This document shows, one piece after another, positions 921-10,019 of a stretch of 64,000 nt of DNA (its first letter is position 1; the number at the start of each line of letters is the position of its first letter). A program made the position numbers and the translations under genes. Under the pieces are notes generated by a model that worked only from the letters and a program-made list of their open reading frames with translations, made no database searches and was not told the origin of the DNA. The stretch is taken from positions 434,001 through 498,000 of the forward strand of contig JAFLBX010000002.1 in NCBI GenBank assembly GCA_017303675.1, read 5' to 3'. The DNA comes from Ignavibacteria bacterium. GTDB lineage: Bacteria; Bacteroidota; Ignavibacteria; Tepidaquicellales; OLB5.

Positions 921-921
921 C

Positions 922-1023
922 GACCCCCTCGCCCTAAAGGGCACTCCCCCTTGGTAAGGGGGAGACAAATAAAGCTTTTGATTTTAAGTCCCCTCCTTAC
1001 CAAGGAGGGGATTTAGGGGAGGT
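922..1023. repeat. Palindromic intergenic repeat, copy A (GACCCCCTC...GGGGAGGTC)
   Basis: About 100 bp built from hairpins: GCCCTAAAGGGC, CTCCCCCTTGGTAAGGGGGAG, a spacer with AAAGCTTTTGATTTTAAG, then CCCCTCCTTACCAAGGAGGGG and a closing ATTTAGGGGAGGTC. It starts at once after the lgt stop. Copies B (1436-1535) and C (9463-9618) share the ends and spacer but differ in the inner hairpins. No coding role. Confidence 0.85.
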
Positions 1024-1122
1024 CTTATTAAGTATAAAAAATCTTAATTAAGGAGCTTAAAGACGGGCAGAATTTTCAACAGAAAAAAAGATAAGGAAAA
1101 ACGAAGATCGCTTCGGAATAAT

Positions 1123-1452
1123 ATGACCAAAGCCGAAGCAATACTGTGGGATGAAATAAAAAACCGAAAGATTCTGGGGGTCAAATTTCGCAGACAATTT
1201 GGAATAGGTGCATATGTTGTTGATTTCTATTGTAATGAATTAAAGATTGCTGTTGAAGTAGACGGCGCTACTCATCAAACAGATGCAGAATTAGAATATG
1301 ACAGGACTAGAGAAGAAGAAATCCGACAGCTTGATATTCATTTTATAAGATTTTCTAATATTGAAATCTATCAATCTCTGGATCATGTTATTGAAAGTTT
1401 AAAAACGAAGGTAGAATTTTTGGCAGCAAAAAAATCGACCCCCTCGCCCTAA
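1123..1452 (+). CDS. DUF559 single-domain endonuclease (PD-(D/E)XK, Vsr-like)
   Basis: Small nuclease-fold protein. Visible family blocks are AEAILWDEIKNRKILGVKFRRQF, GAYVVDFYC and IAVEVDGATH; Asp and Glu of VDFYC/EVDG are the expected metal ligands of the PD-(D/E)XK fold. The frame is open upstream to 1048, and the residues there (RRSLRNN before the ATG) resemble the usual DUF559 N-terminus. The real start may therefore be a non-ATG codon such as ATT at 1072, or the 5' end may have been lost. The last residues (STPSP) and the stop codon are encoded by repeat copy B. The gene lies between two direct repeat copies. Cellular function is unknown for this family. Confidence 0.8.
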   Translation: MTKAEAILWDEIKNRKILGVKFRRQFGIGAYVVDFYCNELKIAVEVDGATHQTDAELEYDRTREEEIRQLDIHFIRFSNIEIYQSLDHVIESLKTKVEFLAAKKSTPSP

Positions 1453-1535
1453 AGGGCACTCCCCCTTGATAAGGGGGAGACAAATAAGGCTTTTGATTTT
1501 AAGTCCCCTCCTTAACAAGGAGGGGATTTAGGTCT
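1436..1535. repeat. Palindromic intergenic repeat, copy B
   Basis: Same orientation and nearly the same sequence as copy A (GCCCTAAAGGGC hairpin, CTCCCCCTTGATAAGGGGGAG, AAGGCTTTTGATTTTAAG, CCCCTCCTTAACAAGGAGGGG). It lacks about five bases near its end (ATTTAGGTCT instead of ATTTAGGGGAGGTCT). Its first bases supply the stop codon of the DUF559 gene. A separate hairpin, CTACGAGT/ACTCGTAG, follows at about 1542-1563. Confidence 0.85.
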
Positions 1536-3607: not shown

Positions 3608-6121
3608 ATGAAAAATAAGCACTTAATAAATACTTACGTTAGTTTCTTCAGTGGTGCAGGCATAGGATGCTATGGTTTTCTATTAGAAGGATTTAAATGC
3701 ATTGCTACTGTTGAATTGTTAGAAAAACGGCTAAAATTTCAGAGATATAATGACAAGTGTACTTATGAAAGTGGATATATCTGTGGGGATTTGAAAGAAG
3801 ATAATGTTAAGACTAAATTATTAAACGAAATAGATTATTGGAAGAATAATTATTCAATAAAGGATATTGATGTAGTTATTGCAACCCCTCCTTGCCAAGG
3901 AATGTCTGTGGCTAATCATAAAAAAAAGGACGAGAAGAGTAGAAATTCACTTGTAACAGAATCAATTAGGTTTGTAAAGGATCATAAACCTAAGTTCTTT
4001 ATTTTTGAAAATGTAAGAACATTTTTGAAGACTATATGTACTGATATAGACGGCAAGGACAAGAAAATTAAGGATGCAATAGAGCTAAATCTAGCCGGAG
4101 AGTATCATATTCACTATGAATATTTGAATTTTAAAAATTACGGAAATAATTCCAGCAGAACACGAACACTCGTAATAGGTACAAGAAAAAACTTAGAGGA
4201 GATTACGCCTTATGCTATATTTCCAGACTATACAAAGGAAAAAACCTTAGAAGAAGTTATTGGTGATTTACCTGAACTAAATGAAATGGGTGCAATTGAT
4301 CCCACTGATATATACCATAACTTTAGACCATATGCACCTAAAATGCTGGAATGGATTAAGGATATTAAGGAAGGTGAGTCTGCATTTGATAATAATGATA
4401 TTAAAAAAATTCCACATCAAATAATTGATGGTTTAATACTATATAATACAAATAAAAATAGCGACAAATATACAAGATGCTATTGGGATAAGGTTGGTCC
4501 ATGTATTCACACAAGAAATGATATTCTAGCAAGCCAGAATACAATACATCCGAGGGATAATAGAGTTTTCAGCATACGTGAGTTAATGAAAATGATGACT
4601 ATACCTGATACGTTTAAATGGACAGACATATCGGAAAAAGACTTAAACAAATTGCCATATGACTTAAAAAGGAAATTCCTTTCTAAGGAGGAAATGAATA
4701 TTCGACACAGCATTGGTGAAGCAGTTCCTACTAATATTTTCAGACAAATAGCAAACAAAATTAAAACCGTTCTGAATGAAACATCAATAAACTTACCTCA
4801 AGTAAATAAAATAATTGAAAAGGAAAATCTCAAATCGAATGAAGCTATTTATAATTTTGTCAAAATTAATTTAAATAAACTTAACTATTCGACTCTTTCA
4901 AAAATTGTAGAAACATCCAATGCATTAAAAACTGATAATGCGGCTTATTATACAAGACAAGATATCTGTTACTCAATAATAAAAGATCTGCCATCCCCAG
5001 ACAACTATGACAATTTGAAAATTCTTGAGCCATCAATTGGAGTGGGTAATTTTCTTCCCCTACTGATTACAAAATATAGAGAAGTAAAAAATGTCACAAT
5101 TGATGTAGTAGATATTGATGAGTTTGCTATAAAAATTGTAGGTCTTTTAGTAAAAAAATTGAATATTCCGGAAAATATTAAAATCAATTATATAAATAAT
5201 GATTTTTTGCTACATGAATTTAACCATAGTTATGATATAGTTGTAGGGAACCCTCCATTTAAGAAATTTAATTCAGATAAGGAACTTCTTAATAGATATA
5301 AATCAAATGTAGTAAACAAAGATACGAATAATCTATATTCTTTTTTTATTGAAAAATGTTTACAGCTTGGTGATATCGTGTCTTTAGTAGTGCCTAAAAG
5401 TTTAATCAATTCACCTGAATATAACAAAACCAGGGAAATTCTATCGAAATTGAAATTTAACAAGATTATTGATTATGGAGAGAAAGCTTTTAAAGGAGTA
5501 CTCATTGAAACAATTAGTTTCATTATAGAAAACAAGCCTCTACCGGCTAATAATTCAATTGAAATAGAATCTTATATCCTTAATAATATAAGTATAAAAA
5601 GACAAGATTACATTTTTTCATCTAACTATCCTTATTGGTTAATTTATAGAGATGATTATTTTGATTCTGTAAGTCAAAAATTAAACTTTAACATTTACAA
5701 ATCATACAGAGATAGACAAATTACAAAGAAAATAACAAAGCCAAAAGCAGATATACGTGTTTTAAAATCTCGTAACATTGGTTCTAACAAAATAATTGAT
5801 ATAGATGGTTATGATTGTTATGTAAATTATACATCAAATTTAGATGTCTTGAAATTTATTAATAATAAAGAAGCAGTGTTGGTTCCAAATCTCACTTATT
5901 ATCCCAGAGCATGTTTTCTTCCACCTAATACAATAACTGATGGTTCTGTTGCAATCTTAACATTAAGAAACGGTAGTAGGAAAATACACAAAAAAGATTT
6001 GGAATATTACAATAGTGAGGAATTTACAAGATTTTACAAGATAGCGAGGAATTATGGAACTCGCTCATTGAATATAGATAATAATTCAGTATTTTTCTTT
6101 GGAATTATGAAAGATAGTTGA
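3608..6121 (+). CDS. Fused cytosine-C5 / adenine-N6 DNA methyltransferase
   Basis: One 837-aa protein with two complete methyltransferase modules. Residues about 8-400 are a C5-cytosine enzyme: FFSGAGIGCYGFLLEGF (motif I), TPPCQGMS with catalytic Cys96 (IV), ENVR (VI), SRTRTLVIG (VIII), a short target-recognition region, and HSIGEAVPTNI (X). Residues about 450-837 are an N6-adenine enzyme of the gamma (TaqI/type IIG) order: AYYTRQDIC, LEPSIGVGNFLPLL (motif I), DIVVGNPPF (motif IV, residues 548-551) and a C-terminal region that may set specificity. Methylating C on one strand and A on the other suits an asymmetric, type IIS site. The next gene, overlapping as TGATG, is the likely restriction enzyme. 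The region is visibly AT-richer than its neighbours, suggesting transfer. Confidence 0.9.
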   Translation: MKNKHLINTYVSFFSGAGIGCYGFLLEGFKCIATVELLEKRLKFQRYNDKCTYESGYICGDLKEDNVKTKLLNEIDYWKNNYSIKDIDVVIATPPCQGMSVANHKKKDEKSRNSLVTESIRFVKDHKPKFFIFENVRTFLKTICTDIDGKDKKIKDAIELNLAGEYHIHYEYLNFKNYGNNSSRTRTLVIGTRKNLEEITPYAIFPDYTKEKTLEEVIGDLPELNEMGAIDPTDIYHNFRPYAPKMLEWIKDIKEGESAFDNNDIKKIPHQIIDGLILYNTNKNSDKYTRCYWDKVGPCIHTRNDILASQNTIHPRDNRVFSIRELMKMMTIPDTFKWTDISEKDLNKLPYDLKRKFLSKEEMNIRHSIGEAVPTNIFRQIANKIKTVLNETSINLPQVNKIIEKENLKSNEAIYNFVKINLNKLNYSTLSKIVETSNALKTDNAAYYTRQDICYSIIKDLPSPDNYDNLKILEPSIGVGNFLPLLITKYREVKNVTIDVVDIDEFAIKIVGLLVKKLNIPENIKINYINNDFLLHEFNHSYDIVVGNPPFKKFNSDKELLNRYKSNVVNKDTNNLYSFFIEKCLQLGDIVSLVVPKSLINSPEYNKTREILSKLKFNKIIDYGEKAFKGVLIETISFIIENKPLPANNSIEIESYILNNISIKRQDYIFSSNYPYWLIYRDDYFDSVSQKLNFNIYKSYRDRQITKKITKPKADIRVLKSRNIGSNKIIDIDGYDCYVNYTSNLDVLKFINNKEAVLVPNLTYYPRACFLPPNTITDGSVAILTLRNGSRKIHKKDLEYYNSEEFTRFYKIARNYGTRSLNIDNNSVFFFGIMKDS

Positions 6122-7323
6122 TGAACATATCTGATTACTTAAATAAGGCTAATCTAGACATTCGTAAAGTAAAAGGTGTTAGATTTATGGATCAGAAAGT
6201 AACTCCCGATGTACTTTGTATAATTTCTGATTGCGTGATAAATTATGTCGGTGATGACTTAGAGACCACTTTCACTAAAAACGATATTTGGGAATCTCAA
6301 TATTTCATTAAAAATGTTAAAAATATTTTTAATAAGCCTGATGCTCTCAAGGAAACTGCACGGAGTGAATACGATAAATTTGTAAGCCAACCACTCCAGA
6401 TGCTTTCTTTTGCCCAACTGCTCTACTGCGAAAAGCGTGGGACAACAAATTTTTATAAAATAAAAAATCAGGAATTATTAGAATATATATCTCTAAAAGA
6501 ACATAACGCATATGTTTTTTTATATTTTTATTTATTAAAAGTCATGGAGTCGAGCGGTTTTTTAAAAAATCTTATCAATTTTAAAACGCTCTATGAAAAC
6601 GGCAATCTTACTGAAGAAAAATTTCAAGACTTGAAAGATCAATTCAAAAAATTCATATTAGGAAATACTAATATTAATGGTAAGACTGAGGTTTACCGTA
6701 TTTTTCCAAAGGTTTTAAATGTATTTTCCGCATATAATTATATACCAGGTGCAATTAAAGGCCGTTTATCAAAATTTCCCTTTTGTTATGGTGATTTAAT
6801 GTATAATAGAGTTAATTGGAGAGATCGTAACAAATCAAAAGATATTACAAGACAAGAAGCCGAATCTTTATTTGCTGAAAGAGTTACAGACTTAGGTACT
6901 TCATATAATGCTTATTTAGTACAAAAAGCAATGAATACTATCCGAAAATTGTATCGTGAAAGTGAGATTAAAGACCAATGGAGTTCTGGAGATGCCACAC
7001 AAGTACATCACATTTTTTCATCTAAATCATTTCCGTCTTTAGCGCATTATTTGGAAAATTTAATAAAACTAACACCAACCCAGCATTTTTTTAAAGCTCA
7101 TCCAAATAATAAAACAACTGTTATTAATAGAGATTATCAACTTATATGTTTACTTGCTAAATCAAACAGTATTGAAACATCTTTAAAAGCATTTGGTGAA
7201 AGATATTACAGAAAAGAGTCATTTATTTATGTGATAAATACAGGTTTATCATTAAGTTTAAATGCCTCACTTAGTTTTAACGATATACGCGTGAATTTAG
7301 TTCAACATTATAACAAAAATTAA
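6121..7323 (+). CDS. Probable HNH restriction endonuclease partner
   Basis: 400-aa protein whose ATG overlaps the methyltransferase stop (TGATG), implying translational coupling. Residues about 291-327 carry an HNH-type metal site: VHHIF (His296, His297), ENLIKL (Asn313) and TPTQHFFKAHP (His322, His327). HNH type IIS enzymes such as Eco31I/BsaI and Esp3I/BsmBI act with cytosine plus adenine methylation of asymmetric sites, which matches the fused methyltransferase upstream. The N-terminal 290 residues, including a CEKRGTTNFYKI segment, match no domain I recognise and would contain target recognition. The restriction role is inferred from context and the HNH motif; the recognition site cannot be read from sequence. 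Confidence 0.75.
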   Translation: MNISDYLNKANLDIRKVKGVRFMDQKVTPDVLCIISDCVINYVGDDLETTFTKNDIWESQYFIKNVKNIFNKPDALKETARSEYDKFVSQPLQMLSFAQLLYCEKRGTTNFYKIKNQELLEYISLKEHNAYVFLYFYLLKVMESSGFLKNLINFKTLYENGNLTEEKFQDLKDQFKKFILGNTNINGKTEVYRIFPKVLNVFSAYNYIPGAIKGRLSKFPFCYGDLMYNRVNWRDRNKSKDITRQEAESLFAERVTDLGTSYNAYLVQKAMNTIRKLYRESEIKDQWSSGDATQVHHIFSSKSFPSLAHYLENLIKLTPTQHFFKAHPNNKTTVINRDYQLICLLAKSNSIETSLKAFGERYYRKESFIYVINTGLSLSLNASLSFNDIRVNLVQHYNKN

Positions 7324-9462: not shown

Positions 9463-9618
9463 GACCCCCTCGTCCGGCAGCTGCCGGACACTCCCCCAAG
9501 ATTCATCCCGCCAGGGCGGGACTTCGAAAATCACTCCGTGATTTTCTTGAGGGGGAGACAAAAAAAGCTTTTGATTTTAAGTCCCCTCCTTACCAAGGAG
9601 GGGATTTAGGGGAGGTCT
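9463..9618. repeat. Palindromic intergenic repeat, copy C (expanded)
   Basis: Shares with copies A and B the GACCCCCTCG start, the GAGGGGGAGAC block, the AAAGCTTTTGATTTTAAG spacer and the CCCCTCCTTACCAAGGAGGGG-ATTTAGGGGAGGTCT end. The first inner hairpin is TCCGGCAGCTGCCGGA instead of GCCCTAAAGGGC. The second is a larger nested structure including CCCGCC-a-GGGCGGG and AAAATCAC-tcc-GTGATTTT. The outside is conserved and the inside exchanged. Confidence 0.8.
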
Positions 9619-9665: not shown

Positions 9666-10019
9666 AATGAGAGGCGTTTGAGGCTTTTATTCTAAGCCCC
9701 GATGGGGCGTAAGATTTTAGCGATGGGCTAAAGCCCATCGGGTTAAAGTAAACAAATTTACCCAAGCCCTGGAAGGGCGGAATCGATGTGCCTTTTCAGG
9801 TTAATTCAATCAGGGCTAAAGCCCATACTTTTTAAAAATTACATCCTCACCCTAAAGGGTATGTCAAAAAAGAATGAATTATCGGAAACAATAGCAGCCG
9901 GATACCCCCTCCAGCTCCCCCTTTTAGGGGGAGGGTCGAGGACGCTTTTTCAAGCCTTGAAAGTGTTGGAATATTTCATTATTTTAGCGTTTTATTAAAA
10001 GGAAATTTATAAACAGAAC

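Follow-up and report, generated by a model that had tools for sequence, protein, structure and literature searches.

Several described systems share features with the locus reported here. In the REP/REPIN (BIME) and TnpAREP/RAYT system, or 'REPtron', short palindromes with a conserved head occur in many copies per genome, an inverted pair of them around a linker is dispersed as a non-autonomous unit, and the enzyme gene is flanked by its cognate repeats, with several independent pairs per genome. All of these features recur here. By definition the REP sequence of REPIN/RAYT systems is preceded by a conserved tetranucleotide, usually GTAG (PMC8266576), whereas the heads here are C/G-rich (GGGGTGGT, GGGGAGGTC). 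The RAYT enzyme is a Y1 HUH tyrosine transposase, whereas the enzyme here is a Vsr/PD-(D/E)XK-like nuclease, and the units described below, unlike REPIN/RAYT, insert in frame in coding genes. EDxHD homing endonucleases, including I-Bth0305I, have a catalytic domain related to that of DUF559 by profile and fold, and they are likewise present or absent at defined sites in conserved genes; a published remark (PMC9403480) puts a DUF559 gene in this homing family. In contrast to these endonucleases, the unit here has a single short domain, no sign of an intron, intein or splicing was seen, and cognate repeat arms frame the gene and spread without it as well. The Vsr very-short-patch-repair endonuclease has the same fold (Foldseek, 1vsr), but the gene here lies among repeats. 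Rickettsia palindromic elements (RPE) are also palindromic and inserted in frame in protein-coding genes; the available part of the review PMC10969869 gives them a length of about 150 bp and describes no gene of their own, whereas the unit here carries a nuclease. MITEs, like the gene-less units described below, are short inverted-repeat units, but the enzyme here is neither a DDE nor a HUH transposase and no fixed target duplication was found. Among the open-licence PMC papers naming DUF559, none was found whose available text describes a link to such repeats.

Together, the DUF559 gene and the arms on either side of it probably constitute one selfish mobile unit of about 0.45–0.6 kb, which is REPIN-like and has a Vsr-fold nuclease in place of a RAYT. 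DUF559 is a common protein family whose role is not settled.

Copies A and B and their nuclease gene

The window, the whole 64,000-nt stretch of Ignavibacteria DNA that was analysed, contains two copies of a repeat, A (921–1017) and B (1436–1532), which are 97 nt each, 97% identical, in the same orientation and 515 nt apart. Across 100 dinucleotide shuffles of the window, 0 matches to their hairpin patterns are expected. An earlier note on this DNA had described a DUF559 gene framed by two direct copies of a palindromic repeat, the first beginning at the lgt stop and the second supplying the nuclease stop. The coordinates confirm both junctions: copy A begins directly 3' of the lgt stop codon (918–920), and copy B contains the stop codon of the DUF559 open reading frame (1123–1452), which results in the tail STPSP. 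The repeats and their direct framing of the gene are real, but each copy is a pair of inverted arms, GACCCCCTC..hairpin, spacer, hairpin..GGGGAGGTC, and not a single palindrome; such a pair without a gene is called a 'hollow' unit. With two inverted arms in every copy, the arms of A and B that adjoin the DUF559 gene also face each other across it as an inverted pair, with hairpins pointing outward and heads (GGGGAGGTC/GACCCCCTC) inward. This inverted pair adjoining the gene, and not the direct repeat alone, defines the arrangement.

As a complete hollow unit, from head to head, copy A occupies 921–1026 on the forward strand. Its left arm (922–965) has the head GACCCCCTC, a small GCCC/GGGC stem and the hairpin CTCCCCCTT..AAGGGGGAG at 944–964, and its right, gene-side arm (985–1026) has the hairpin TCCCCTCCTT..AAGGAGGGGA followed by the head GGGGAGGTC. 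The copy folds in a cruciform-like manner, in which head pairs with tail and both hairpins are closed (DNA z = -3.9). In copy B, the second hollow unit, the left arm (1436–1480) partners the right arm of A, and the terminal right-hand head is lost (ATTTAGGTCT versus ATTTAGGGGAGGTCT). Rfam at the gathering threshold placed no family on the arms and no splicing element near the locus. The flanking genes, also on the forward strand, are lgt (36–920) on the left and a PGA_cap-family lipoprotein gene (1667–2779) on the right. A third hollow unit, which belongs to the family of A and B and contains no DUF559 gene, lies at 9463–9618 on the forward strand (L007), and its spacer and right arm are 99% identical to those of A. 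The left hairpin of this unit is split by another palindrome (GATTCATCCCGCC..GATTTTCTTGA), a case of nested repeat insertions.

The nuclease gene (PF04480) extends over 1063–1452 on the forward strand, with a clear ATG open reading frame from 1123. Codon 1063–1065, at which the orthologues start, follows a kept AGGAG; it is ATG in the orthologues of G005 and G010, and both the window and G002 have ACG. Translation may begin at the ACG of 1063–1065, or a shortened protein may be made from the ATG at 1123. The Pfam matches to the protein are DUF559 (E=8.8e-29; 100 bits against a curated cut-off of 20.6) and MTES_1575 only, with no Y1/HUH transposase (PF01797). An alignment of 66 sequences keeps E30, W34, D59, F60, E70, D72, G73, H76, D85 and R101, of which E30, D59, E70, D72, H76 and D85 are invariant. 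A profile search with hmmsearch matched DUF559 to the mobile-intron protein 3r3p (I-Bth0305I) at E=4e-4. With the AlphaFold2 model (pLDDT 92), Foldseek returned Neisseria 3hrl first, then I-Bth0305I (probability 1.00, E=1e-3) and Vsr (1vsr). The protein thus models as a Vsr/EDxHD homing-endonuclease fold. Between the DUF559 orthologues at the lgt site dN/dS is 0.03–0.28, and in DUF559 embedded in UvrC pN is 0.08–0.17 against a near-saturated pS; these low values indicate that the protein is kept by purifying selection.

Cognate pairing of arms and protein

The source genome has four DUF559 genes, each (4/4) framed by an inverted pair of C-rich hairpin arms; the arm type differs among the four, with heads GGGGTGGTT, GGGGGTCTT, GGGGTGTGTT and GGGGAGGTC. 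The repeat of the window has 22 DNA matches genome-wide, comprising hollow units, solo arms and fragments. The wider DUF559 sample drew on the genus and the phylum and on 80 loci taken from species genomes, 193–199 places in all, and many of the genomes with G handles are MAGs. The species-genome loci were picked by similarity to the DUF559 protein of the window, so that other branches of DUF559 lie outside the survey. When the upstream flank was compared with the reverse-complemented downstream flank (match at a score of at least 14), inverted flanks matched in 64% of 193 DUF559 places, against 0/50 for the control nuclease UPF0102 (p 4e-19) and 1.1% of 2250 control intervals placed at random in those loci. 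On at least one side, 81% of 199 DUF559 places had a C-rich hairpin no more than 250 nt away, versus 4% of the UPF0102 controls, and 47% versus 0% had one on both sides; coding sequence may be commoner in the flanks of UPF0102 than in those of DUF559, so the sequence-matched inverted arms and the tree test outweigh these hairpin counts. About a fifth of the DUF559 places had no such hairpin within 250 nt. The enrichment of DUF559 beside repeats raised in the earlier note is therefore seen both in the source genome and in the survey. Among the non-Bacteroidota loci of the species-genome collection, which include Cyanobacteriota, Acidobacteriota, Nitrospirota, Planctomycetota, Myxococcota and several Patescibacteria, 53 of 54 had a C-rich hairpin.

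Across loci, an arm generally consists of a G/C-rich head and a C-rich hairpin. The commonest heads are AACCACCCC/GGGGTGGTT; GGGGTGGT, GGGGAGGT, GGGGGTC, GGGTGTGT and similar heads also occur, and the GTAG tetranucleotide is not a feature of them. Heads usually point toward the gene, with mixed arm polarity in a minority of loci. On the DUF559 tree, arm class requires 56 changes, against at least 92 with shuffled labels (n=172). Arm similarity also tracked protein similarity among loci with unrelated outer flanks (Mantel 0.26; permutation maximum 0.055; 18,644 pairs). Since arm type follows the DUF559 tree even at unrelated sites, protein and arms travel together, as cognate partners in a mobile unit. 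The idea of one spreading repeat was rejected: every DUF559 subfamily has its own arm, and what spreads is many cognate pairs of repeat and nuclease.

The palindrome CCCCTCCT-n2-8-AGGAGGGG was found in 17 of 118 phylum genomes, and DUF559 was present in 16 of these 17 versus 45 of the 101 others (Fisher 1.1e-4, kinship ignored). Two phylum genomes have 25 and 124 palindromes with four DUF559 matches each, so the arms far outnumber the gene. Genome G026 has eight CCCCTCCT palindromes and no DUF559 was found in it; its genus-mates G031 and G036 have four and two DUF559 genes, and a recent loss in G026 is possible.

The repeats could also be moved in trans by another enzyme, such as a RAYT, an IS transposase or host repair, with DUF559 as cargo. 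The source genome does have RAYT genes (nine matches to Y1_Tnp, the RAYT-type Y1 transposase), and hollow units and solo arms move on their own. However, the repeats that frame these RAYT genes are different ones, and a C-rich hairpin adjoins none of the nine, so a RAYT was rejected as the default mover of the arms. The tracking of DUF559 subfamily by arm type, the near-constant presence of DUF559 in palindrome-bearing genomes and the four arm types of the four DUF559 genes in one genome also argue against a cargo role, which is regarded as unlikely.

Empty, hollow and filled sites

At the lgt site, a hollow unit, DUF559 and a second hollow unit are found in four genomes (G000, G002, G005 and G010). 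In six outgroup relatives (G004, G006, G007, G008, G009 and G011) the junction is empty, with the lipoprotein gene directly after lgt and neither repeat nor DUF559; lgt loci lacking the insertion had been proposed in the earlier note as a test of mobility. The site holds other repeats in G012. Judged by position, a single gain in the clade's ancestor plus a loss in G012 is enough to account for this distribution. Copies A and B resemble each other more closely inside one genome than they do across genomes, a pattern suggestive of concerted change. G000 and G002 also have a solo 41-nt arm that G004 and G006 lack.

Whole units have also been found at more than one site. A 463-bp unit is 98% identical at two sites (L070 and L074, on short MAG contigs), where the flanks diverge at the unit edges, and two copies of a unit occur within one genome (L246 and L248). 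Terminal inverted repeats bound the units in both cases. Among plasmids, no DNA relative of the L070 unit was found. The direct repeats that surround units are of varying length and frequently include arms. Only at L128 was there a duplication, of 37 bp, that resembles a clean target-site duplication, and it is not general; no consistent fixed-length target-site duplication was established for units across loci.

Units have further been found in frame within conserved genes. Insertions near the CP1 editing domain of LeuRS occur in the genus of the window and in three other genomes of the phylum, and an in-frame insertion at a different LeuRS site occurs at L237. The other in-frame hosts are UvrC (three species, one site), MetH (two), HsdR (three), and HsdM and other DNA methylase-like genes; LeuRS and UvrC are confirmed by Pfam, and host names outside the genus are readings of translations. 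Together with the empty lgt sites and the near-identical units at two sites, these insertions bear out the mobile cassette proposed in the earlier note. Loci L159, L217, L219 and L240, from different families of the phylum, have LeuRS with DUF559 in frame at the same CP1 site, and the catalytic residues of these embedded proteins are kept. These four represent either independent hits or old inheritance.

At uvrC, close relatives have empty (G000, G012, G006 and G011), hollow (G002 and G010) and filled (G005, G008 and G009) alleles, and the change may have been from hollow to filled or from filled to hollow. The localised co-conversion tract that homing predicts was looked for at uvrC and not seen. 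The entire G002 gene is closer to those of G005, G010 and G012.

Such sites may also be read as the targets of a plain homing endonuclease acting on host genes and intergenic sites, whose arms serve as homology or as tolerance devices such as terminators or linkers. The fold, the profile likeness to I-Bth0305I and the published placement of a DUF559 gene in the EDxHD family are consistent with this, as are the single CP1 site of LeuRS in the genus and other phylum genomes and the single uvrC site in three species. Arms standing alone in tens of copies (the genomes with 25 and 124 palindromes), arms sequence-matched to the protein and otherwise diverse insertion sites speak against it, and plain homing is judged slightly less probable than a cargo role for DUF559. 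A host function is very improbable; in that view a small gene for defence or repair would be framed by arms acting as bidirectional terminators or mRNA hairpins, and the association would be regulatory rather than selfish. Hairpins next to short genes can terminate transcription, and DUF559 has a weak match to a type II methyl-directed restriction model. Such a function is difficult to reconcile with empty sites, copies at two sites and in-frame insertions in housekeeping genes, with hollow units and solo arms away from any DUF559, and with UPF0102, a control nuclease gene without such hairpins.

Proposed mechanism and other repeats of the window

In the preferred reading of a selfish REPIN-like unit, paired inverted arms enclose either a spacer, as a hollow and non-autonomous unit, or the nuclease gene, and DUF559 would drive the spread of both by cutting followed by repair-driven copying. 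The target of the nuclease would be the sequence of its own arm, a pair of arms or an empty site, where it would make a cut or a nick. The heads differ along with the protein and are mostly turned toward the gene, which makes them the best candidates for the recognition site. Repair of the break off an arm-bearing copy would then copy in arms, hollow units and sometimes the gene, and recombination between the flanking direct copies could remove the gene, turning a filled site into a hollow one.

The chances appear evenly balanced that these units represent a new pan-bacterial class of mobile element, in which REP-like arms and a dedicated Vsr-fold DUF559 form co-evolving pairs, settle in frame in essential genes and are the source of scattered C-rich palindromes in Bacteroidota, Ignavibacteriota, Cyanobacteriota, Patescibacteria and other genomes. 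If so, DUF559 would gain a testable role as the enzyme of a REPIN-like selfish system, and this would explain where a widespread class of C-rich palindromes comes from. It would also mean that such units settle in frame within LeuRS, UvrC, MetH and HsdR, and that a REP-type system has arisen whose enzyme is not related to the HUH transposases.

Two further features of the window were recorded. Positions 3608–7323 hold a methyltransferase of 837 aa in which cytosine-5 and Eco57I types are fused, and after it a 401-aa open reading frame that reads as HNH-type; the region is probably a type II restriction-modification locus. The Rfam 'RNA' Acido-Lenti-1 (RF01687), at 9695–9740 on the reverse strand, falls on a repeat of the CGATGGGC/GCCCATCG type. 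Repeats of this type also adjoin RAYT genes of the source genome (L031), and what RF01687 describes may be a REP associated with RAYT instead of an sRNA.
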